From NCBI GenBank assembly GCA_947627695.1, contig CANQXF010000002.1:1-64000 (forward strand): a DNA stretch of 64,000 nt. Direction: 5' to 3'. Under the pieces are notes generated by a model that was given only the letters and a program-made list of their open reading frames with translations, searched no databases and was not told where the DNA came from. A program made the translations under genes and the position numbers. Origin of the DNA: an uncultured Ruminiclostridium sp. (GTDB lineage Bacteria > Bacillota > Clostridia > Oscillospirales > Ruminococcaceae). Below are positions 7,763 through 62,010 of the stretch, piece by piece; positions within the stretch are counted from its first letter, which is position 1; each line of letters opens with the position of its first letter.

Positions 7763-10279
7763 TCAGTGTGTATCAAACCACGTCTTTCCTATCTTCACGT
7801 CCGCAATAAGCGGCACGTCCAGCTTTATGCAGCTTTCCATTTCCTCTTTAAGCAGCTTTGCCACCTGCTCCGCACAGCTTTCCTCCGCCTCCACGATAAG
7901 CTCGTCGTGGACTTGCAGTATAAGCCTTGCGGGTAGCTTTTCCTTTTCCAGACGGTCAAACACCTTTATCATAGCCATTTTTATGATGTCCGCCGCCGTC
8001 CCCTGGATAGGCGTGTTCATGGCGATACGCTTTGCCGCCGCCTGTACCACCTTGTTTGACGCCTTTATTTCGGGGATATATCTCTTCCTGCCGAAAAGCG
8101 TTTCGACATAAAGATTTTTTTCAGCGTCTGCCACCGTCTTTTTCATAAATCCGTCAACGCCGCTGTACTTGCTGAGATAAGCGTCGATATACCTTTTCGC
8201 CTCCGAAACGGTGACGTTTACGTCCCTTGACAGGGAGAACGCCCCTATACCGTAAACTATGCCGAAGTTCACCGCCTTTGCTCTCGAACGCAATTGGGGC
8301 GTTACCCACTCTATCGGCTGATTGAACACCTGCGAGGCGGTTATGGTATGAATATCGTCCCCGTTTATGAAGGACTGCTGCATAAGCCTGTCCCCCGCAA
8401 GGTGCGCCAGAACTCTCAGCTCGATCTGCGAATAGTCTGCGTCCACCAGCAGACAGCCCTCTTTTGCGGTGAAGAACTTTCGCATATTCCGCCCCAAGTC
8501 GGTGCGCACGGGGATATTTTGTATATTCGGCTCTGCGCTGCTGATACGCCCCGTTCTCGTTTCAGTCTGCTTGAAGGTGGAACGCACGCGTCCGTCCTCA
8601 CAGACCGCCGCTTTCAGCCCGCTGACGTAGGTGGAATACAGCTTTGTATACGCCCTGTAATCGGTGATAAGGTCGATTATCGGGTGCTTGTCACGCAGGC
8701 TGTCCAGAACGTCTGCGTTGGTGGAATAGCCCCTGTGATTTTTCTTTCCCGAGGGCAGTCCCAGCTTTTCAAAAAGTATCGTTCCAAGCTGTTTGGGGGA
8801 ACTTATGTTGAACTTTTCCCCCGCCAGCAGATATATCTGCCGTTCTGTCTCCGCCGTCTGCGCCAGCAGTTGCTCTCCGAAACGGTCTATCCCCTCCATA
8901 TCAAGCTGAACGCCGTCCTTTTCCATAGCGGAAAGGACTCTTGCCAGCGGCATTTCTATCTTTTCAAGGATCTCCGTAAGATTTTCCGCATTTATCCTGT
9001 TTATCAGTTTCCTGCTGAGGGAGTAAAGACATTTGGGCAGTTGTCCGTCATTTTCGGCGGGAGTAACGCCGTACTCGGCGCAAAGCCTGCCAAGGCTGTA
9101 ATCGCTGGAATTGACGTTCAGCAGATACGCCGCCAGCGTCAGATCAAACACTGCGTTTTTCACGTCCCCGCCGTACTTGAAAGCAAAGCTGCACAGCGTT
9201 TTCAAATCAAAGGTGCGCTTTGGCTGTTCGCTTTTCAGCAGCTCCAAAGCCTGCTCTTTTTCAAGAACGGTCATCTCCCCCTTGCGGCAGACCTTGAGCG
9301 TTTCCCCGTCAAGCATTATGTCGACTGTGTTTTCGTCAGGAGCAATTTCGCTTTCAGCCTTTGCCGCCGCCTCTGCCGCCGCCTTTGCGTAAACGGTCTC
9401 CTGCGCCTGTTTCATCGCTCCCACTGAAACATTCAGCTTTTTCAGCAGGTTGAACATCTCAAGCTCAGTAAGAATTTCCGCTATCTCCTGCTCGTTCCTC
9501 TCTTTCGGCAGATAATCTGTTATCTCCGTAGAAACGGGCGCCGAAAGGGAAATAGTGCCCAGCTCACGGCTCAAAAAACAGCTTTCCTTTCCCTCCGTCA
9601 GCTTTTTCTTCACGTTGTCGGAGATAGGCAGACTTTCAAGATTTTCATAGATATTGCTCACAGAGGAATATTTCTTTATCAGATCAGACGCCGTCTTTTC
9701 GCCTATGCCCTTTACTCCGGGGATATTGTCGCTGGAGTCCCCCATAAGCGCCTTTATCTCTATCATCTGCTTCGGCTCAACGCCGTACACCTCCCGTATT
9801 TTTTCGGGAGTATAGATAGTGTCCTCTCTGTTTCCTGCATAGCACACCGTCACCTTGTCGGTGATGAGCTGAAAGCTGTCCCTGTCCCCCGTGGCGATAA
9901 CGGCGGTGTGACCCGCAAGCTCCGCCCCGTGAGATATCGTGCCTAAAATATCGTCGGCCTCCCAGCCCTCTTTTTCCACAATAACTATCCCCATAGCCTT
10001 CAGCAGCTTTTTTACATAGGGTATCTGCATAGCCAGCTCCTCGGGCATAGGCTTTCTCGTCCCCTTGTAGTCCTTGTACATCTGATGGCGGAAGGTAGGC
10101 GCCTTCAGATCAAACGCCACCGCCACGCAGTCGGGCTTAAAGCCGTTTTCCAGCTTGAGAAGAATGTTGAAAAAGCCTGTTATAGCGTTGGTAAATACCC
10201 CCTTTTTGTTGGAAAGGGCGTGTATCCCGTAAAACGCTCTGTTAACTATGCTGTTGCCGTCGATTATGAGAATATTCAT
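7763..10279 (-). CDS. polA: DNA polymerase I
   Basis: An 838-aa replication/repair polymerase. The 5'-3' exonuclease domain spans about 1-290 (MNILIIDGNSIVNRAFYG; GWEADDILGT; GDSSDNIPGVKGIGEKTA). The central proofreading-exonuclease domain is present as a fold but lacks the DxE metal ligands, as in many Firmicutes polymerases. The polymerase domain shows motif A DYSQIELRVLAHLAGD, motif B RSRAKAVNFGIVYG and motif C QVHDELIVE. A GAAAGGAAC site precedes the ATG. It removes RNA primers and fills gaps; proofreading is presumably lost. Confidence 0.97.
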   Translation of the reverse strand: MNILIIDGNSIVNRAFYGIHALSNKKGVFTNAITGFFNILLKLENGFKPDCVAVAFDLKAPTFRHQMYKDYKGTRKPMPEELAMQIPYVKKLLKAMGIVIVEKEGWEADDILGTISHGAELAGHTAVIATGDRDSFQLITDKVTVCYAGNREDTIYTPEKIREVYGVEPKQMIEIKALMGDSSDNIPGVKGIGEKTASDLIKKYSSVSNIYENLESLPISDNVKKKLTEGKESCFLSRELGTISLSAPVSTEITDYLPKERNEQEIAEILTELEMFNLLKKLNVSVGAMKQAQETVYAKAAAEAAAKAESEIAPDENTVDIMLDGETLKVCRKGEMTVLEKEQALELLKSEQPKRTFDLKTLCSFAFKYGGDVKNAVFDLTLAAYLLNVNSSDYSLGRLCAEYGVTPAENDGQLPKCLYSLSRKLINRINAENLTEILEKIEMPLARVLSAMEKDGVQLDMEGIDRFGEQLLAQTAETERQIYLLAGEKFNISSPKQLGTILFEKLGLPSGKKNHRGYSTNADVLDSLRDKHPIIDLITDYRAYTKLYSTYVSGLKAAVCEDGRVRSTFKQTETRTGRISSAEPNIQNIPVRTDLGRNMRKFFTAKEGCLLVDADYSQIELRVLAHLAGDRLMQQSFINGDDIHTITASQVFNQPIEWVTPQLRSRAKAVNFGIVYGIGAFSLSRDVNVTVSEAKRYIDAYLSKYSGVDGFMKKTVADAEKNLYVETLFGRKRYIPEIKASNKVVQAAAKRIAMNTPIQGTAADIIKMAMIKVFDRLEKEKLPARLILQVHDELIVEAEESCAEQVAKLLKEEMESCIKLDVPLIADVKIGKTWFDTH

Positions 10280-54110: not shown

Positions 54111-55400
54111 ACGGAAGGATTTGAAGAACTGCTCAAAGCGGCAAAAACAGCGGTTGAGCGCTTTGTGAGATTTAAAGTGGGAAATAAGACCGACGCCGAC
54201 GATATTTTGCAGGAAGTCTATCTTACCGCATATCAGAAATTTCCCACGCTGAAAAACAAAGACTCGTTCAAAGCGTGGCTGATAAGCATTGCCCGCAATA
54301 AATGCAATGACTATTTCAGAGAAAAGGCGGCAAGGCTGGAGATACCCATAGAAACGCTCACGGAAAAACGCCTTTCCTACGGAAAGCAGGGCGTTTCTCA
54401 GATAAGCATTGTCAGGGAAACCCTTGAGCTTTTAGGGGACAAAGACAAGCAGATACTTTATTTATATTTCTGGAAAGAGCTTCCCCAAACTGAAATAGCA
54501 AAGCGGCTGGATATCCCCGTGGGAACGGTGAAAAGCCGCCTTTATACCGCCAAGCGGAATTTCAAAGACAAATATCCCGTCAATATACCGAAAGGAGAAA
54601 ACAATATGAAGAAACTGCCCGAAATACTGCCTGAATACAAAATAGAGCAATTGCCCGAAGAGCCTTTTCAGTGCGTCTGGGAGGAGCTTATGGGCTGGCT
54701 CGTCGTACCCAGAACAGGCGAAAAGCTGAGCTGGGGACTATACGATATGCCCTCCCGCAAAAGGACGGAGTGGACGGAAATGGAGGTTATCGGCAAAGCC
54801 GAGGTCCACGGCATAGAGGGCGTTGAGACAGTGGCGATACAGCACGACGCCGAAAACTATTACCGCACGGGGAGCATAAAGGAATGCGAATGGCGCTTTA
54901 TAAATCAGCTCACCGACACCCACTGCCGCACCCTTGCGGAAAGCCACGTTGACGAAAACGGCGTGCGCCGTGTGCATACGTTCCTTGACGGAGATGAATT
55001 TATGCAGAACTGGGGCTACGGCGATGACAACTGCGGCAAGGAAACGCATATCAGACGAAAGGGTATACTGAGCCGCGAGGGAAACGTCATAACAGGCATT
55101 CCGAAACCGAATTTACAGTCTATGGACGTGGTGGGAAGATATAAGGTGACTATCGGCGGCAGGGAATACGATACTATTTGTGTAATGGACATCGAGACCT
55201 TTGACGACAGCATAGTTACCGAAAGCTATATCGACAAAAACGGCAGAACGGTATTGTGGCGCAGATTTAATCACGACAACTGGGCGGCTGACAGATACAA
55301 AAAAAGCTGGAGCGAAATGCTCCCCGAAAACGAGCGCCTTTTCGTCAACGGAGAGACCTACGTTCATTGGTACGACTGCATAACCGACTATATTCTTTGA
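54111..55400 (+). CDS. ECF sigma factor with large C-terminal domain
   Basis: A 429-aa protein. Residues about 1-160 are a sigma-70 ECF module: region 2 with DADDILQEVYLTAYQKF and SFKAWLISIARNKCNDYFRE, region 4 with LPQTEIAKRLDIPVGTVKSR. Residues about 166-429 are a conserved domain of unknown function ending YVHWYDCITDYIL, known to me only as the tail of such sigma factors in Clostridia. No ATG/GTG/TTG follows the strong AAGGAGGTG at 54096; the in-frame codon at the right distance is ACG (54111), where relatives have ATG. The first standard codon is GTG 54165, which has no ribosome site and would remove part of region 2. An internal AAAGGAGAAAACA-ATG at 54606 could also release the C-terminal domain alone. 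Confidence 0.78.
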   Translation, partial: TEGFEELLKAAKTAVERFVRFKVGNKTDADDILQEVYLTAYQKFPTLKNKDSFKAWLISIARNKCNDYFREKAARLEIPIETLTEKRLSYGKQGVSQISIVRETLELLGDKDKQILYLYFWKELPQTEIAKRLDIPVGTVKSRLYTAKRNFKDKYPVNIPKGENNMKKLPEILPEYKIEQLPEEPFQCVWEELMGWLVVPRTGEKLSWGLYDMPSRKRTEWTEMEVIGKAEVHGIEGVETVAIQHDAENYYRTGSIKECEWRFINQLTDTHCRTLAESHVDENGVRRVHTFLDGDEFMQNWGYGDDNCGKETHIRRKGILSREGNVITGIPKPNLQSMDVVGRYKVTIGGREYDTICVMDIETFDDSIVTESYIDKNGRTVLWRRFNHDNWAADRYKKSWSEMLPENERLFVNGETYVHWYDCITDYIL

Positions 55401-56076: not shown

Positions 56077-57513
56077 TCAGAGCATAGCCTGATAAACGAT
56101 CTGTATTGTCATATTCTTCCTGTCAAAGATAATTTCCCTTATAACGGTGCGAAGAAAAGCATTCTTCTCATTCTCGGAAACGCCGCCGTCCTTTATCCTG
56201 TTAATGACTTCCGATAATTTAATTTTTATTTCGCTTCTGATTTCTTCTTCCGACGGCTTGGGAACGTCGGCTTCCAGCTCTTTTATCCTGCTTATGATAC
56301 GGGTCTTGTTCAGCCTGTATTCCTCAAGAGAATCAACGCCCGCTTCAAACGCTTCCTTTACCCTTTCCAGCCTGCCGTACTCCTTCTGAAGCAGAACTTC
56401 GTTTATATTATCCTTTTCGCTTTCGGATTTTTTTCGTATAACATAGTTAAAGCTCATATCCTCAAGATCAGCTTCTATCTGACCAATTACCGCTTCATTC
56501 ATTTTCTCTATCGTAATGCTGTGAGATACCCTGCATTGTCCTCTTGCGTATTTGTGACATTGCAGGGACTTTCCTTTTACCGCCTGAACCAGCGTTGCTC
56601 CGCAGTCAGAGCATCGGCAAAGTCCCCGCAGCATAAAATCCGCCTGCTTTTGCTGAGCGTGAGGGACGTATTTTTTCTTCTGCTCTTTTAAACGTTCATT
56701 GGCTTTTTCGTACAGCTCTTCGCTGATAACAGGCGGGTGCCTGCCCTCAACGATAATATTATTCTCCGATCGGTGAAAGCGGTCTGCTGCGTCGCGCCCG
56801 TTGGGATTGCGGCGCAGCTTTCCCAGATAGGTGGGATTGCAGAGGATATATTCAACAGTGCGGTCTTCAAATTTGTTTCCCTTTATGGAACGCACCCCCA
56901 TAGCGTTCAGCTTCGTTGCTATTTTTCGCAGACTCATTCCGTTAACGTAATCCTCAAAGATCATCTTTACGACAGGCGCCGTCCCGTCATCAGGCACAAA
57001 CGCGCCGTCCCCCATTTTATAGCCGAATGGAGGCTGTGAAACTACCCCGCCGCGGGAGAATTTTTCATTCATGCCTCGCCTGACCTCTTCCGCAAGGTTT
57101 ATCGAATAGTATTCGTCCATCGCTTCAAGCAAAGCCTCGATCAATATGGACGTCTTGTCCTCGCCTATCTGTTCGGAGACGGACACCACGTCGATACCGC
57201 ATTGCTTTCGCAGCATGGATTTATAAACGATACTGTCCTCCCGACTGCGGGCAAAGCGGGAGAATTTCCAGACAAGTATCATATCAAAGGGCTTGGGCTT
57301 GCTTTTAGCAAGAGCTATCATCTTCATAAAAGCGGGTCGTTTTTCGGCTTTTCGCCCGCTGATACCCTCGTCAAGAAATATAAACTCCGAGGGGATACGT
57401 ATATCGTTTCGTTCTGCATATTCCCGTATTTTCTTTATCTGGCTGTCGGGAGAATATTCAAGCTGATCGTCCGTTGACACCCGAACGTAAGCGGCGGCGG
57501 TCCTTGTGGGCAT
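56077..57513 (-). CDS. Large serine recombinase
   Basis: A 478-aa site-specific recombinase. The resolvase domain starts AAAYVRVSTDDQLEYSPDSQ with catalytic Ser13 and contains LVWKFSRFARSRED; the recombinase domain includes PPFGYKMGDGAF and ALRKIATKLNAMGVRS-like MSLRKIATKLNAMGVRS; a zinc ribbon follows (RGLCRCSDCGATL ... QCHKYARGQCRVSHS) and a C-terminal coiled coil (about 370-450). The size is like SpoIVCA and other integrases of intervening elements. AAGGAGCC precedes the ATG. Position at the cotJC break marks it as the integrase and excisionase of the element. Confidence 0.93.
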   Translation of the reverse strand: MPTRTAAAYVRVSTDDQLEYSPDSQIKKIREYAERNDIRIPSEFIFLDEGISGRKAEKRPAFMKMIALAKSKPKPFDMILVWKFSRFARSREDSIVYKSMLRKQCGIDVVSVSEQIGEDKTSILIEALLEAMDEYYSINLAEEVRRGMNEKFSRGGVVSQPPFGYKMGDGAFVPDDGTAPVVKMIFEDYVNGMSLRKIATKLNAMGVRSIKGNKFEDRTVEYILCNPTYLGKLRRNPNGRDAADRFHRSENNIIVEGRHPPVISEELYEKANERLKEQKKKYVPHAQQKQADFMLRGLCRCSDCGATLVQAVKGKSLQCHKYARGQCRVSHSITIEKMNEAVIGQIEADLEDMSFNYVIRKKSESEKDNINEVLLQKEYGRLERVKEAFEAGVDSLEEYRLNKTRIISRIKELEADVPKPSEEEIRSEIKIKLSEVINRIKDGGVSENEKNAFLRTVIREIIFDRKNMTIQIVYQAML

Positions 57514-57980: not shown

Positions 57981-58021
57981 CGTATTCAATTTTCTGAATA
58001 CGATTTTGCCTGCGATAATAT
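57981..58021 (+). promoter_or_regulatory. Dyad promoter 1 (sigma-WYL gene)
   Basis: The inverted repeat CGTATTCA-N6-TGAATACG (57981-58002, centre 57991.5) is followed by TAATAT at 58016-58021. The distance from dyad centre to the first base of the -10 box is 24.5 bp, identical to dyad promoters 2 and 3. The sigma-WYL ATG lies 23 bases after the box. Confidence 0.65.
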
Positions 58022-58044
58022 CAGTTCTGCATAGGAGAGACGTT

Positions 58045-59577
58045 ATGACAAGCGAAGAAATAAATGCGCTGATCTTAAAAACAAAAAACGGAGATAACGA
58101 GGCGTGGAGCCGCCTGTATGAAAATTTCAGCGAATACGTTCATTCCCGCGCATGGAAACGAATAGGCAGACTAAAGAATATCTCTGCTCAGAGGAAAAGC
58201 GATATGGAGGAAGAATTGTTTCAGGCGGGCTGGGAGGGCTTTTTGTCCGCGATTCGCAGCTATGACCCCGATCAGGGAAAATTCCTGACCTACGCCACCC
58301 ATTTCATCGACGGGGAGATGTCCTCGCAAACGAAGCTTTTCTTTTCCTCCTCACATGAGCTTACCGAATTTACGAGGACCGGGGCTCAAACGGAGCTTTC
58401 CGTTCCCGACGAACCCGACAGGGGGAAATACAGCGCAGAAAGGCGCGCACTTCAGATAGTTGAGATACTCCGCCTTCTTACAGATGAAGAACACAGCATG
58501 TCCAAGGAGAAGCTCGCCCATTTTCTCAGAATGTACCGTATAAACAAGTACAAAAACGGAACTCCGCCCGAAGCGCCGAATACCATTACAAGCACCGTCG
58601 AGGAAATACTTGCGGAATTGGGTCCGTCCGAATACAGCAGGAGAAACAAGGACAAATACAGGATAATATACGAGGGCTACGAAGAAAACCGTCTGAAGGC
58701 TAAGCAAAACAGGGCAAACGGCGGCAAGGCGGCTCCCATAACCAATTTTTCCTACGTGCATATTTTTTCTTCGGAGGAGCTGGACAGGCTGATACAAGTG
58801 ATCTGCCTTTCGGATATGTTTTCCAACGAGGAGAAGCTGCGCCTTGCAAATAAGCTGATATCCACCGCCAGCGTGTATTATAACACGCCCTTTGTCGACG
58901 GCGATAAGCTGAAATTCAGCCCCAAAGCCGTACACGGAAGATTAAGCGGGAGAACCGTAAAGGATAAACGGGAGCTTGCGCAAAATGTAAATTTCATACA
59001 AAAAGCAATAAACAGTATGCGTCAGATAAAGTTCAGATTTAACTGCTATACGGCGGAGCATACAATGATACCCAAATCCGACCGCTTTCATATTTTGAGC
59101 CCGTATCACATAGTGGTATATCACGACAACTACTACTGTATAGGTCTGCACAATAACGATACGCATATCCGCCACTACCGCATCGACCTTATGTCAGACC
59201 TGGGATTTCTTACGGACGGCGAAAATCCCGTTCCCATCGACGTTTGCGCATTTGACGGACTGCCCATAGGCAACGCGCGCTGGGACCCTGAAAAGTATAT
59301 GGCAGAACATTTGTATATGGGATTTGACGAGCCGACAGACATCTTCATCAAGATAAAAAACGAAGATTACACCATACTTCACGACTGGTTCGGGGATCAT
59401 TACGAAAAAACGCCGCAGATATGCGAGAAAGGATACGATATCGTGAAGGTCAGGACCTCTCCGTTCATGATAGTGCATTGGGCGGCTCAGTACGCAGGCT
59501 CGGTTGAGATAATGAACGATGATATCAGGGCAAAAATACGGGACGAGATACTTGAACTGAGAAAAAAATATGAATAA
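58045..59577 (+). CDS. Sigma-70 region-2 / WYL-domain fusion regulator
   Basis: A 510-aa protein with an unusual architecture. Residues about 10-105 look like sigma-70 region 2: NGDNEAWSRLYENF, LFQAGWEGFLSAIRSYDPDQ and GKFLTYATHFIDGEM, the last matching the -10-recognising segment. No sigma region 4 follows; instead come a WYL-protein-type winged helix (about 134-200, with VEILRLLTDEEHSMSK), a WYL domain (about 315-400, with ILSPYHIVVYHDNYYCIGLH and HYRIDLMSDL) and a WCX-like end (about 410-510). AGGAGA lies 6 bases before the ATG. WYL domains sense ligands and dimerise on palindromes; joining one to a sigma region suggests a ligand-controlled alternative sigma factor. A repressor or activator with a degenerate sigma fold is the alternative. 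Confidence 0.8.
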   Translation: MTSEEINALILKTKNGDNEAWSRLYENFSEYVHSRAWKRIGRLKNISAQRKSDMEEELFQAGWEGFLSAIRSYDPDQGKFLTYATHFIDGEMSSQTKLFFSSSHELTEFTRTGAQTELSVPDEPDRGKYSAERRALQIVEILRLLTDEEHSMSKEKLAHFLRMYRINKYKNGTPPEAPNTITSTVEEILAELGPSEYSRRNKDKYRIIYEGYEENRLKAKQNRANGGKAAPITNFSYVHIFSSEELDRLIQVICLSDMFSNEEKLRLANKLISTASVYYNTPFVDGDKLKFSPKAVHGRLSGRTVKDKRELAQNVNFIQKAINSMRQIKFRFNCYTAEHTMIPKSDRFHILSPYHIVVYHDNYYCIGLHNNDTHIRHYRIDLMSDLGFLTDGENPVPIDVCAFDGLPIGNARWDPEKYMAEHLYMGFDEPTDIFIKIKNEDYTILHDWFGDHYEKTPQICEKGYDIVKVRTSPFMIVHWAAQYAGSVEIMNDDIRAKIRDEILELRKKYE

Positions 59578-59586
59578 AAAAGCATC

Positions 59587-59626
59587 ATCTTCAAAATTCT
59601 GAAGATCGATTTTTCCATAATATAAT
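59587..59626 (+). promoter_or_regulatory. Dyad promoter 2
   Basis: ATCTTCAAAATTCTGAAGAT (59587-59606, centre 59596.5), 14 bp, then TATAAT (59621-59626). The -10 is flanked by CCATAA as in dyad promoter 3. It drives the genes at 59677-61196. Confidence 0.75.
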
Positions 59627-59676
59627 TGAGAGCATAAAAATTGCAGAAATGCAAAAATGGAAAAGGAGAGCTTCAT

Positions 59677-59946
59677 ATGAAAGTTATCAGTATGGAATTA
59701 GGCGGAAAAGAGATAGCCCGTATCGAGGAAGGAGTTTTTATTCCTCTTATCGATTGCAGAGGGCGTTTTCAGCCGAATTTGACAGATTGGTATGAAGATT
59801 GTTTTTTCGGCGTCAAAAATTCCTCTACATTTGAAGAACGCTTCAAAAGAGTTGAAGAAAACGATTATTTCTGTTACAGCAAGCCCGCGCTGAAGCTGAT
59901 AGCCAAAATCACGGACGAGGACCAGTCAGGCAAAAGTCAGAGCTGA
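59677..59946 (+). CDS. Hypothetical 89-aa protein
   Basis: A small soluble protein: MKVISMELGGKEIARIEEGV at the start, then DCRGRFQPNLTDWYEDCFFG. No known domain is seen. AAAAGGAGAG precedes the ATG. It is the first gene after dyad promoter 2, so it should belong to the sigma-WYL regulon. It is followed by a P-loop-like fragment and a 373-aa protein. Confidence 0.75.
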   Translation: MKVISMELGGKEIARIEEGVFIPLIDCRGRFQPNLTDWYEDCFFGVKNSSTFEERFKRVEENDYFCYSKPALKLIAKITDEDQSGKSQS

Positions 59947-59958
59947 AAGGAGAGTTAA

Positions 59959-60087
59959 ATGATAATAGCGTGTTATGCAGGGGTGGGAAAAAGCGTTTTC
60001 GCAAGGAAAATAAGGAGTGGGCGTTCCACCTGGGAAAATTATGCTTTGAAAAAATTCAGAAAGGAAAAGAGAATATGTTCCAATTAG
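59959..60087 (+). pseudogene. Truncated P-loop protein or very short gene
   Basis: AAAGGAGAG and an ATG open a 42-codon frame beginning MIIACYAGVGKSVFARKI, a good Walker A (AGVGKS) as at the start of small nucleotide kinases or ATPases. The frame then turns into basic, unrelated sequence and ends at 60087, 13 bases inside the next gene. The most likely reading is the remnant of an ATPase gene whose rest was lost when the next gene was joined. Confidence 0.5.
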
Positions 60088-61196
60088 TTCCATCCGAATA
60101 TATGAGGAAGCTGTTAGAAGAAAAAGGCTTTACGTTTACGGATTTTCAGAAAGCGGCGCTTATCCGTAACGCGCCAGGCCGAAGCTGGGAAGAAAAGCTG
60201 GAGGCGCTGCGGGAGCTTGCGGGGCAGACTAAGGACGAAAAGCTGCGCCGTCAGATAGAGGAGCGCCTTTGGTTTGAGGAAGAGGCTTTCCGCAGATTTA
60301 AGGACAATTCTGCGGGGCGGTACGTTTACGTCACTGTGGAACACTATGAGATAAAGGAAATAAGCTTCGGCTTTTTTGCGGACTACGAAATGGCAAAGGA
60401 GCACGTCTTAAAGGCTATACGTGAAGACGAGGATTTTTCCGGTACTTATTTCACTATCGAAAAGCAGGTCATCGTCAGGGACAAGAGCGAACTGATAGTC
60501 AAAGATCAGGCAAGATGGAATACTTATATGTTCCCCGAAATGGCGGAGGAGGAAGAAGAGTATGAGGAGTATGAGGGGTATCACGTTTCTTCCGTTCGCT
60601 TTGACAAAGAGGGGAGGATCAGCGATTTTTATACAGGCGAAATGAGCCGTGAAGAAATTATGACGGTGGATGAGTTTAACCCCGAGCGTTTTGAAGCGCC
60701 GTTTTTCAAAATCCCCTTTGAAGCGCCGCTGGCAGCACCCGTTCGTACGCTGAGCAACCCTAAAGGAAATTATGAAGATTACGGCATACTGTTGTGCGAT
60801 ACGAACGATTGGGAGCAGTATATGCGTGATATTGAGGAACGGAAGCGTTACGTGGATTTTTCCGACGTTCAGGTGGAGGTTTATTTTCTGAACGACTACG
60901 GCAGATGGTCGCATGACCATATAAATCCGCTTTATCTGGAAATAGGCGTCAAGCCCGAGAACGTGACGGACGAAAGAGAAAAGGCTTACGTTCGCGCAAT
61001 GGAGGCGTTTTCCGAATACTGGCGTTACAGCATCACAGATGCAAAGACAGAGGACAAGACGGCAGCTCTGGAAAAGGCGGCAATACAAACGGCAAAGGCG
61101 TACCGCGACGTCTGCCGTAAATATGACGCGCAGAAGATGATACACAGGTTCGGAGTAGATGAAAGTGCAGAGACGATCGACGATATTATGTTCTGA
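60075..61196 (+). CDS. Hypothetical 373-aa protein
   Basis: A soluble, acidic protein. The N-terminal 70 residues (MFQLVPSEYMRKLLEEKGFT, then FTDFQKAALIRNAPG and LEALRELAGQTKDEKLRRQI) form a helical region I have seen as the front of many uncharacterised Firmicutes proteins. A glutamate-rich stretch (EMAEEEEEYEEYEG) lies in the middle, and the rest has no recognised motif. The ATG at 60075 follows AAGGAAAAGAG; a longer frame to 59970 has no ribosome site. A transcription unit with the 89-aa gene is likely; a terminator follows. Confidence 0.78.
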   Translation: MFQLVPSEYMRKLLEEKGFTFTDFQKAALIRNAPGRSWEEKLEALRELAGQTKDEKLRRQIEERLWFEEEAFRRFKDNSAGRYVYVTVEHYEIKEISFGFFADYEMAKEHVLKAIREDEDFSGTYFTIEKQVIVRDKSELIVKDQARWNTYMFPEMAEEEEEYEEYEGYHVSSVRFDKEGRISDFYTGEMSREEIMTVDEFNPERFEAPFFKIPFEAPLAAPVRTLSNPKGNYEDYGILLCDTNDWEQYMRDIEERKRYVDFSDVQVEVYFLNDYGRWSHDHINPLYLEIGVKPENVTDEREKAYVRAMEAFSEYWRYSITDAKTEDKTAALEKAAIQTAKAYRDVCRKYDAQKMIHRFGVDESAETIDDIMF

Positions 61197-61280
61197 CAGC
61201 GGCGGCTGCGTATGAGGCGAATGAGGAAAACCGAAACGCTGCTTACAGCTCCTTTTCAGCATAAGAGCTTTCGTATATAA

Positions 61281-61314
61281 AAAAGCAGTACCGTGATAAA
61301 GCGGTACTGCTTTT
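61281..61314. terminator. Bidirectional terminator in the accessory region
   Basis: AAAAGCAGTACCG and complement (13-bp stem) with an 8-base loop separate two converging units. Confidence 0.9.
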
Positions 61315-61324
61315 AACTGTATTT

Positions 61325-61936
61325 TTATTTGTTCCCGAAATCGTTTCTGAATACCAGCTCAAGCGTTCTCAACAGCTCGTCCTGAAACGCTTTGTCCTCA
61401 ACGTCGGAAATATCCTTTCCGCCGTACTTTTCCATCGCCGCCTGAAAATATTTTTTCCTTTCAGCCACCGCCTTCTCGTCGGGATAATACGCCGACACGT
61501 TACCCGAGCAAAACTGCCTGTAATCGTCAGGACATTTCTCCACCAGGTCAAAGGCGCAATCAAAAAATAAAATATCGGGATTTATCCTCCGCCACCTTTC
61601 CACAACTCCGGGTATTTCGCAGCCCATAACAAAGCTCTCCGTTTCATCTGCTATCTGCGTAAGCTGTTCGCATATCTGCGGATCCGACAAGGAAGCGCTG
61701 ATCTCCTGCCTGATATCTTTCAGCCTGTTTTCAAGATACTCTGAAATATCCTGCTCCTTGCTTCCCTCGGGGAGCGTGTAATAGCGATCCGTTTCTTCAC
61801 ATAACGCCAGCAGCTCCCGCATTTTTTCATACACCTTCTGAATGCACTGAGAGTGGCGGCGGGTCTTCCTGCGGGCTCTGCGCTCCCGTATTTTTTCATA
61901 CGCCTTATGAATACATGCTTTGATTACGTTTGTCAT
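61325..61936 (-). CDS. Hypothetical 203-aa protein
   Basis: A soluble protein with a very basic helical start (IHKAYEKIRERRARRKTRRH) and an internal repeat, since CIHKAYEKIRE and CIQKVYEKMRE occur about 27 residues apart. The rest is acidic helical sequence with a possible beta part near FFDCAFDLVEKCPDDYRQF. No known domain is seen. The ATG at 61936 has GGAGGGA upstream; the longer frame runs through its promoter. Dyad promoter 3 precedes it, so it should share control with the 59677 unit. Confidence 0.72.
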   Translation of the reverse strand: MTNVIKACIHKAYEKIRERRARRKTRRHSQCIQKVYEKMRELLALCEETDRYYTLPEGSKEQDISEYLENRLKDIRQEISASLSDPQICEQLTQIADETESFVMGCEIPGVVERWRRINPDILFFDCAFDLVEKCPDDYRQFCSGNVSAYYPDEKAVAERKKYFQAAMEKYGGKDISDVEDKAFQDELLRTLELVFRNDFGNK

Positions 61937-61970
61937 AGAAAATCCCTCCGTTGAAAAAATTTTGTTTTCA

Positions 61971-62010
61971 CTTATATTATGGAGAGAATTATCTTCAAAA
62001 TTTTGAAGAT
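61971..62010 (-). promoter_or_regulatory. Dyad promoter 3
   Basis: The perfect 20-bp palindrome ATCTTCAAAATTTTGAAGAT (61991-62010, centre 62000.5) is followed on the minus strand by 14 bp and TATAAG (61976-61971). The spacing is identical to dyad promoter 2. The rest of the 331-bp gap 61937-62267 holds only the promoter at 62123 and AT-rich sequence. Confidence 0.8.

Follow-up and report, generated by a model that had tools for sequence, protein, structure and literature searches.

A stretch of 64,000 nucleotides from an uncultured Ruminiclostridium sp. (contig CANQXF010000002.1, positions 1 to 64,000; the window in what follows) carries at 58045-59577 a gene whose product combines a sigma region 2 match with a WYL-type regulator. 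The -35 element of a promoter is normally read by sigma region 4, and sigma factors are normally switched by other proteins. We propose, with a probability of about 0.73, that this gene encodes a one-component alternative sigma factor, in which a WYL dimer would read a palindrome instead of the -35 element and region 2 would read a CATAAT box. At the level of sequence, the proposal is built on the domain make-up, the promoter motif with its fixed spacing, the linkage of the motif to the regulator gene, palindrome arms that changed at the same spacing, gene families that recur behind the motif, and split relatives with neighbouring sigma and WYL genes; binding, dimerisation, the start point, the signal, and activation rather than repression we infer from these. 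If confirmed, cells would have a previously undescribed means of gene activation, with a ligand-type sensor and a palindrome reader apparently built into the sigma factor.

The sigma-WYL protein and its fused and split relatives

The gene and its parts are laid out as follows.

58045..59577 (+): sigma-WYL fusion gene, 510 amino acids; Pfam Sigma70_r2 and WYL, no region 4; 38 fusion relatives
58045..58359 (+): sigma region 2 part, about residues 1-105; Pfam and NCBIfam matches, family profile against solved sigma chains
58441..58629 (+): winged-helix part, about residues 133-195, proposed reader of the dyad; profile-profile match to 14 WYL regulators
58942..59574 (+): WYL and WCX part, about residues 300-510, proposed sensor; Pfam WYL and profile-profile match

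Pfam Sigma70_r2 scored above its cut-off at residues 54-91 (1.5e-06) and WYL at residues 315-385 of a 509-amino-acid version of the protein (5.4e-07), and Pfam detected no region 4 in it or in the other fusions scanned. Residues 133-510 carry a winged helix-turn-helix (wHTH), WYL and WCX in this order and were aligned by hhalign with 14 stand-alone WYL regulators over 335 columns (E 2.4e-53). Compared with solved chains, the family profile matched sigma chains through the N-terminal part alone, never beyond profile position 209, and no WYL chain was matched. In some relatives region 2 falls below the Pfam cut-off, and WCX lies below or near it. The NCBIfam SigI model reached 18.9 bits against a cut-off of 306 and covered region 2 only, too little for sigma-I membership.

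A scan of genome_contigs returned 53 related loci, mostly from Lachnospiraceae metagenome-assembled genomes, whose relatedness inflates the counts given here and below. A sigma profile built from fusions identified a fusion open reading frame (ORF) in 38 of them (L083, L090 and L099 are cut by contig ends, and the frames of L093 and L101 are interrupted). Separate sigma ORFs of 190-221 amino acids lie just upstream of a sigma-less WYL gene in eight loci (L111, L113-L118 and L123). A region 4 profile made from these eight sigmas also matched an ORF in L112 (E 1.5e-26), and the split loci therefore number nine; its best match among the 38 fusions had an E of only 3.8. The region 4 part of the separate sigmas matched an RpoD chain (E 2.6e-6); with Pfam, region 4 narrowly missed the cut-off in L113, scored weakly in L118 and L111, and gave no match in L114, L115 and L116. 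Of the 53 loci, 47 have a sigma part either fused to the WYL part or adjacent to it. No sigma ORF was found in L109, L119 and L120 (L120 begins at a contig end and L119 has Ns), and L108, L125 and L126 are cut by contig ends. Among 71 control loci at other WYL genes, the sigma profile matched only the four that hold two distant fusions and none of the remaining 67.

Searching 391 genomes of the class yielded two further fusions, and 398 genomes of the phylum, searched at E 1e-30, gave no fusion besides that of the window's own genome. The 396 family and 394 order genomes (E 1e-15) returned stand-alone WYL genes, with G715 closest; in this genome (L109/L062) a protein closely related to the WYL part has neither a sigma part nor a sigma ORF nearby, and one weak variant site lies at position 7296 of L109. 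A phage or plasmid origin was rejected: viral_contigs gave no relative, and in plasmids and phages the matches were confined to one part, WYL or sigma, none covering 80% of the protein.

A palindrome and a box at one spacing

The window contains six TTCA-N6-TGAA dyads where 1.52 are expected, a number reached in none of 100 shuffles (all shuffles used here preserve nearest-neighbour composition only). A first-pass annotation had described three of them, at 57985-57998, 59590-59603 and 61994-62007 (sites 1, 2 and 3), as promoters with one identical layout. The dyads were confirmed at these positions, and the common layout was borne out for sites 2 and 3, which share the consensus ATCTTCAAAATTyTGAAGAT with CATAAT exactly 12 bp after TGAA. 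The sites and the genes behind them are the following.

59587..59606 (+): site 2 dyad, ATCTTCAAAATTCTGAAGAT; 54.3 bits, exact spacing
59616..59621 (+): site 2 box CATAAT, 12 bp after TGAA
59677..59946 (+): first gene behind site 2, 89 amino acids, no Pfam family; a relative (64%) in split locus L116
60075..61196 (+): second gene behind site 2, 373 amino acids, in a putative operon by position only; no relative of the protein among the fetched loci
61991..62010 (-): site 3 dyad, ATCTTCAAAATTTTGAAGAT; 61.1 bits
61976..61981 (-): site 3 box CATAAT, 12 bp after TGAA
61325..61936 (-): gene behind site 3, 203 amino acids; its relatives in L082 (51%) and L080 (45%) also follow the motif
57981..58002 (no strand assigned): site 1, inverted repeat with 8-bp arms before the sigma-WYL gene; outside the promoter class

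In contrast, the nearest equivalent at site 1 is GATAAT (58014-58019), which follows TGAA by 15 bp, and the site scored -22.8 bits with the matrix described below (dyad part +10.9, box part -35.2, or -6.9 if shifted by 3); score and spacing rule it out as a third member of the class. The -10 boxes quoted earlier are indeed equidistant from the dyad centres, but only with TAATAT taken for site 1 and TATAAT and TATAAG for sites 2 and 3, a register picked after the fact. The box conserved in relatives is CATAAT, 5 bp further upstream, and it takes the place of that register, which we dropped. The additional window dyads, at 9441, 33392 and 33725, all fall below the full motif.

Within the window and the 53 loci (623 kb), 142 dyads were counted, at 71 places read on both strands. 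Allowing one mismatch and 0-40 bp downstream of the dyad, a CATAATATA-like box was found in 34 cases, in every one of them 12 bp after TGAA; shuffled sets gave 0.5 matches each when all distances were included. A matrix built from seed sites of these loci (prefilter of at most three mismatches to CATAATATA, threshold 16 bits) detected 77 sites in 42 of the 54 sources and none in five shuffled sets, with 76 sites on the strand of the regulator and site 3 as the sole exception. When dyad and box were scored apart over 21 gaps, all 70 pairs fell at a single gap. The promoter class recurs beside sigma-WYL-type regulators across many gut bacteria. Exact spacing far beyond chance, previously claimed from three cases, holds for the class as a whole (34/34 and 70/70 cases) and for sites 2 and 3, not for site 1. 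The proposed position of the dyad over the -35 element is likewise supported.

Base counts in the box (n=77) were C 75, A 77, T 75, A 77, A 62 and T 75. At -12, the 15 TTGACW-N16-18-NATAAT matches of the same loci have T 13 times, G twice and C never; with C at this position in 75 of 77 sites, the box is therefore not an ordinary one. Taking it as -12 to -7 would put the dyad centre at about -31.5 relative to the predicted start point. An ORF begins within 60 nucleotides of this predicted point at 46 of 77 sites, compared with 19% of 1540 random positions.

Matrix sites occur in 30 of the 38 fusion loci. In L105 and L106 the dyad stands 12 bp before a near-canonical CATAAG, the sequences of L083 and L090 stop at the gene, for L091 and L124 the only site lies in another part of the genome, and L101 and L103 have none in locus or genome. 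In the roughly 300 bp before the fusion gene, L100 is the only one of the 38 with matrix sites, and by eye a TTGACA-type promoter precedes the gene in L074, L075 and L076; a matrix site lies upstream of the sigma gene in split loci L115, L116, L117 and L123. General autoregulation was not seen and was rejected. Of the small autoregulated regulon suggested for the window, the regulon is supported by the linkage of the motif to the sigma-WYL gene; autoregulation is unsupported in this genome because site 1, the one before that gene, fails the motif.

Whole genomes and distant fusions

Scanning the window's own genome with the full pattern at up to three mismatches returned sites 2 and 3 only (reversed control 0); the genome shows two promoters of the class. 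Across whole genomes of the locus carriers, the TTCA-type pattern matched in 31 of the first 36 (54 sites; reversed control 1) and in 4 of the other 17 (6 sites; reversed control 1), giving 35 of 53 carriers and 60 sites against a control of 2. From the 36-carrier scan, 42 of the 54 sites lie within the fetched regulator loci and 12 elsewhere, and seven of these remote sites stand directly before motif-associated families (L128, L132/L167, L134 at 25% identity, L141, L147, L154 and L165). Among 149 relatives including the own genome, five others matched, each with exactly three mismatches, against four in the reversed control; these matches are therefore at chance level, and only the own genome exceeds it. 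No site was found in G038, whose fusion lies at a contig end. A search of 193 kb around other WYL genes, in 54 loci that partly overlap, gave one match, again in the L109 locus.

The distant fusions L175 and L176 come from another family of the class, are 38-40% identical and lie outside the loci used for training; their dyads, TGCAAAATTTTGCA and TATAAAATTTTATA, stand 12 bp before CATAAT (0 in 20 shuffled sets). Both arms are changed together and the spacing is kept, as a dimer operator would predict. L175 additionally has TGCAGAATTCTGTA before CATAAG, at 15.1 bits and with arms that are not fully symmetric. In L096, CTCA...TGAG occurs in three sites, plus once elsewhere in the genome. Two sites in L164 (G835, contig 176) are near-identical to those in front of the L100 regulator and precede an uncharacterised 244-amino-acid ORF.

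Proposed mechanism and competing readings

In the mechanism we propose, the N-terminal sigma region 2 would bind core RNA polymerase and read CATAAT. Region 4 would have been lost, and the winged helix of the WYL regulator, as a dimer, would read the palindrome ATCTTCAAAATTTTGAAGAT at the place of the -35 element. The WYL/WCX part would sense a signal and then let the promoters at 59590 (+) and 62007 (-) fire. Since DriD and PafBC are known to be activated by nucleic-acid ligands, the signal may by analogy be a nucleic-acid fragment. The balance leans slightly towards a more specific form, a signal-gated dimeric one-component sigma factor that discarded region 4 after fusion to WYL, needs a symmetric operator and is switched directly by a nucleic-acid ligand. 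If this is true, the split relatives, a sigma with region 4 and a WYL neighbour, would be an intermediate on the way from sigma adaptation to a new sigma factor. By analogy, they look like a DriD/PafBC-type activator with its own sigma, and the fusions look like the next step; the two forms side by side suggest such a route. The combination of palindrome, 12 bp and CATAAT is sharp enough for regulon prediction and small enough for reconstituted testing.

Several observations weigh against a sigma factor of this kind. Pfam alone fails to detect the wHTH in the sigma-WYL protein, and region 2 scores weakly in several members (in L176, for example, with E 0.12). The TTCA-type pattern is absent genome-wide from 18 of the 53 carriers (5 of 36 plus 13 of 17): nine of these have a variant matrix site (L088, L098, L109, L112, L115, L117, L118, L123 and L126), two (L105 and L106) carry the near-canonical one, three (L083, L090 and L119) are truncated or contain gaps, and the last four (L101, L103, L113 and L114) are without any site. 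Five of the 12 remote sites (L127, L137, two in L142/L166, and L164) have no known family behind them, and L109 combines a WYL protein and a weak site (27.2 bits) with no sigma ORF found. In the 30 of 38 site-bearing sequences left after removing WYL cores of more than 85% identity, and with the WYL core controlled for, changes in the dyad track those in the recognition helix only weakly (partial r 0.17, p 0.04), against 0.00 for a control helix.

DriD from Caulobacter, a wHTH-WYL-WCX dimer, binds over a poor -35 element at a constant distance from the -10 element, with its DNA-binding domains flanking sigma region 4 (PMC12340889). The sites described here likewise lie over the -35 position at a constant distance from the box. 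DriD works with the housekeeping sigma, whose region 4 it sandwiches (PMC12340889), whereas here a sigma region 2 is fused and region 4 is missing. A DriD-like activator is the first alternative to weigh: the WYL part would help the sigma-A holoenzyme at promoters lacking a -35 element, and region 2 would be a docking remnant that reads no box. DriD itself, placed over -35 at a constant -10 distance, provides a precedent with the housekeeping sigma (PMC12340889), and L109 would fit as well. Nevertheless, we consider this reading unlikely given the near-invariant C at -12, which sets the sites apart from TTGACW-type promoters of the same loci, and the sigma part found beside WYL in 47 of 53 loci, the other six being contig-cut, gapped or L109.

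The proposed one-component sigma also has partial parallels elsewhere. PafBC of mycobacteria is likewise a WYL regulator that alters promoter recognition; it adapts SigA and is activated by single-stranded DNA, but it is a heterodimer with a -26 motif and a SigA partner and has no fused sigma part (PMC11804915). Sigma-I of Bacilli and Clostridia, a precedent for the loss of region 4, is a sigma-70 type factor in which another C-terminal domain reads the -35 element; this domain is not WYL, however, the promoters have A-tract and CGWA elements, and control is by the anti-sigma RsgI (PMC10575876). Sigma appropriation by T4 AsiA and MotA (PMC6755090) similarly hands -35 recognition to another DNA-binding protein. 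In that case separate phage proteins act on host sigma-70. We found no description of a sigma-WYL fusion in the portions of the open-licence PMC literature covered, and the excerpted WYL survey PMC4012209 lists other WYL fusions with no sigma among them.

A repressor of the BrxR/CapW kind, for which the dyad would be an operator blocking ordinary promoters, is a distinctly poorer candidate: WYL repressors of defence genes are known (PMC9122588) and a dyad over -35 can block polymerase, but a repressor needs neither the single fixed spacing in every pair, nor the unusual box, nor a sigma part. Hardly tenable is the reading of the inverted repeats as RNA hairpins or terminators of upstream genes rather than operators: short hairpins are predicted for the RNA of all three sites, with energies from -7.1 to -9.0 kcal/mol (site 1 at -9.0), but the box fixed at 12 bp, the closeness to gene starts and the linkage to the regulator argue against it; for site 1 alone, a hairpin or terminator is possible.

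Counted at any position in the locus, the neighbours of the regulator include two families without a convincing Pfam match that lie beside it (f0 and f3, in 21 and 11 loci; L095, L107, L110 and others), two metallophosphoesterase families (19 and 16 loci), tandem AAA (9 loci), NT5C-type HAD (8), GNAT (5) and HAD_SAK_2 (4). Together, they hint at nucleotide or nucleic-acid end chemistry, a hint that decides nothing. Just upstream of the G038 fusion gene, repeated tRNA-like stretches were noted by eye (L017, 1870-2200, -). In the window, a large serine recombinase gene (56077-57513, -) lies directly upstream of the sigma-WYL region, and from this adjoining gene the sigma-WYL locus may be mobile. 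A second unusual sigma gene at 54165-55400 (+) has Pfam regions 2 and 4 and, behind them, some 270 residues that match no Pfam family.

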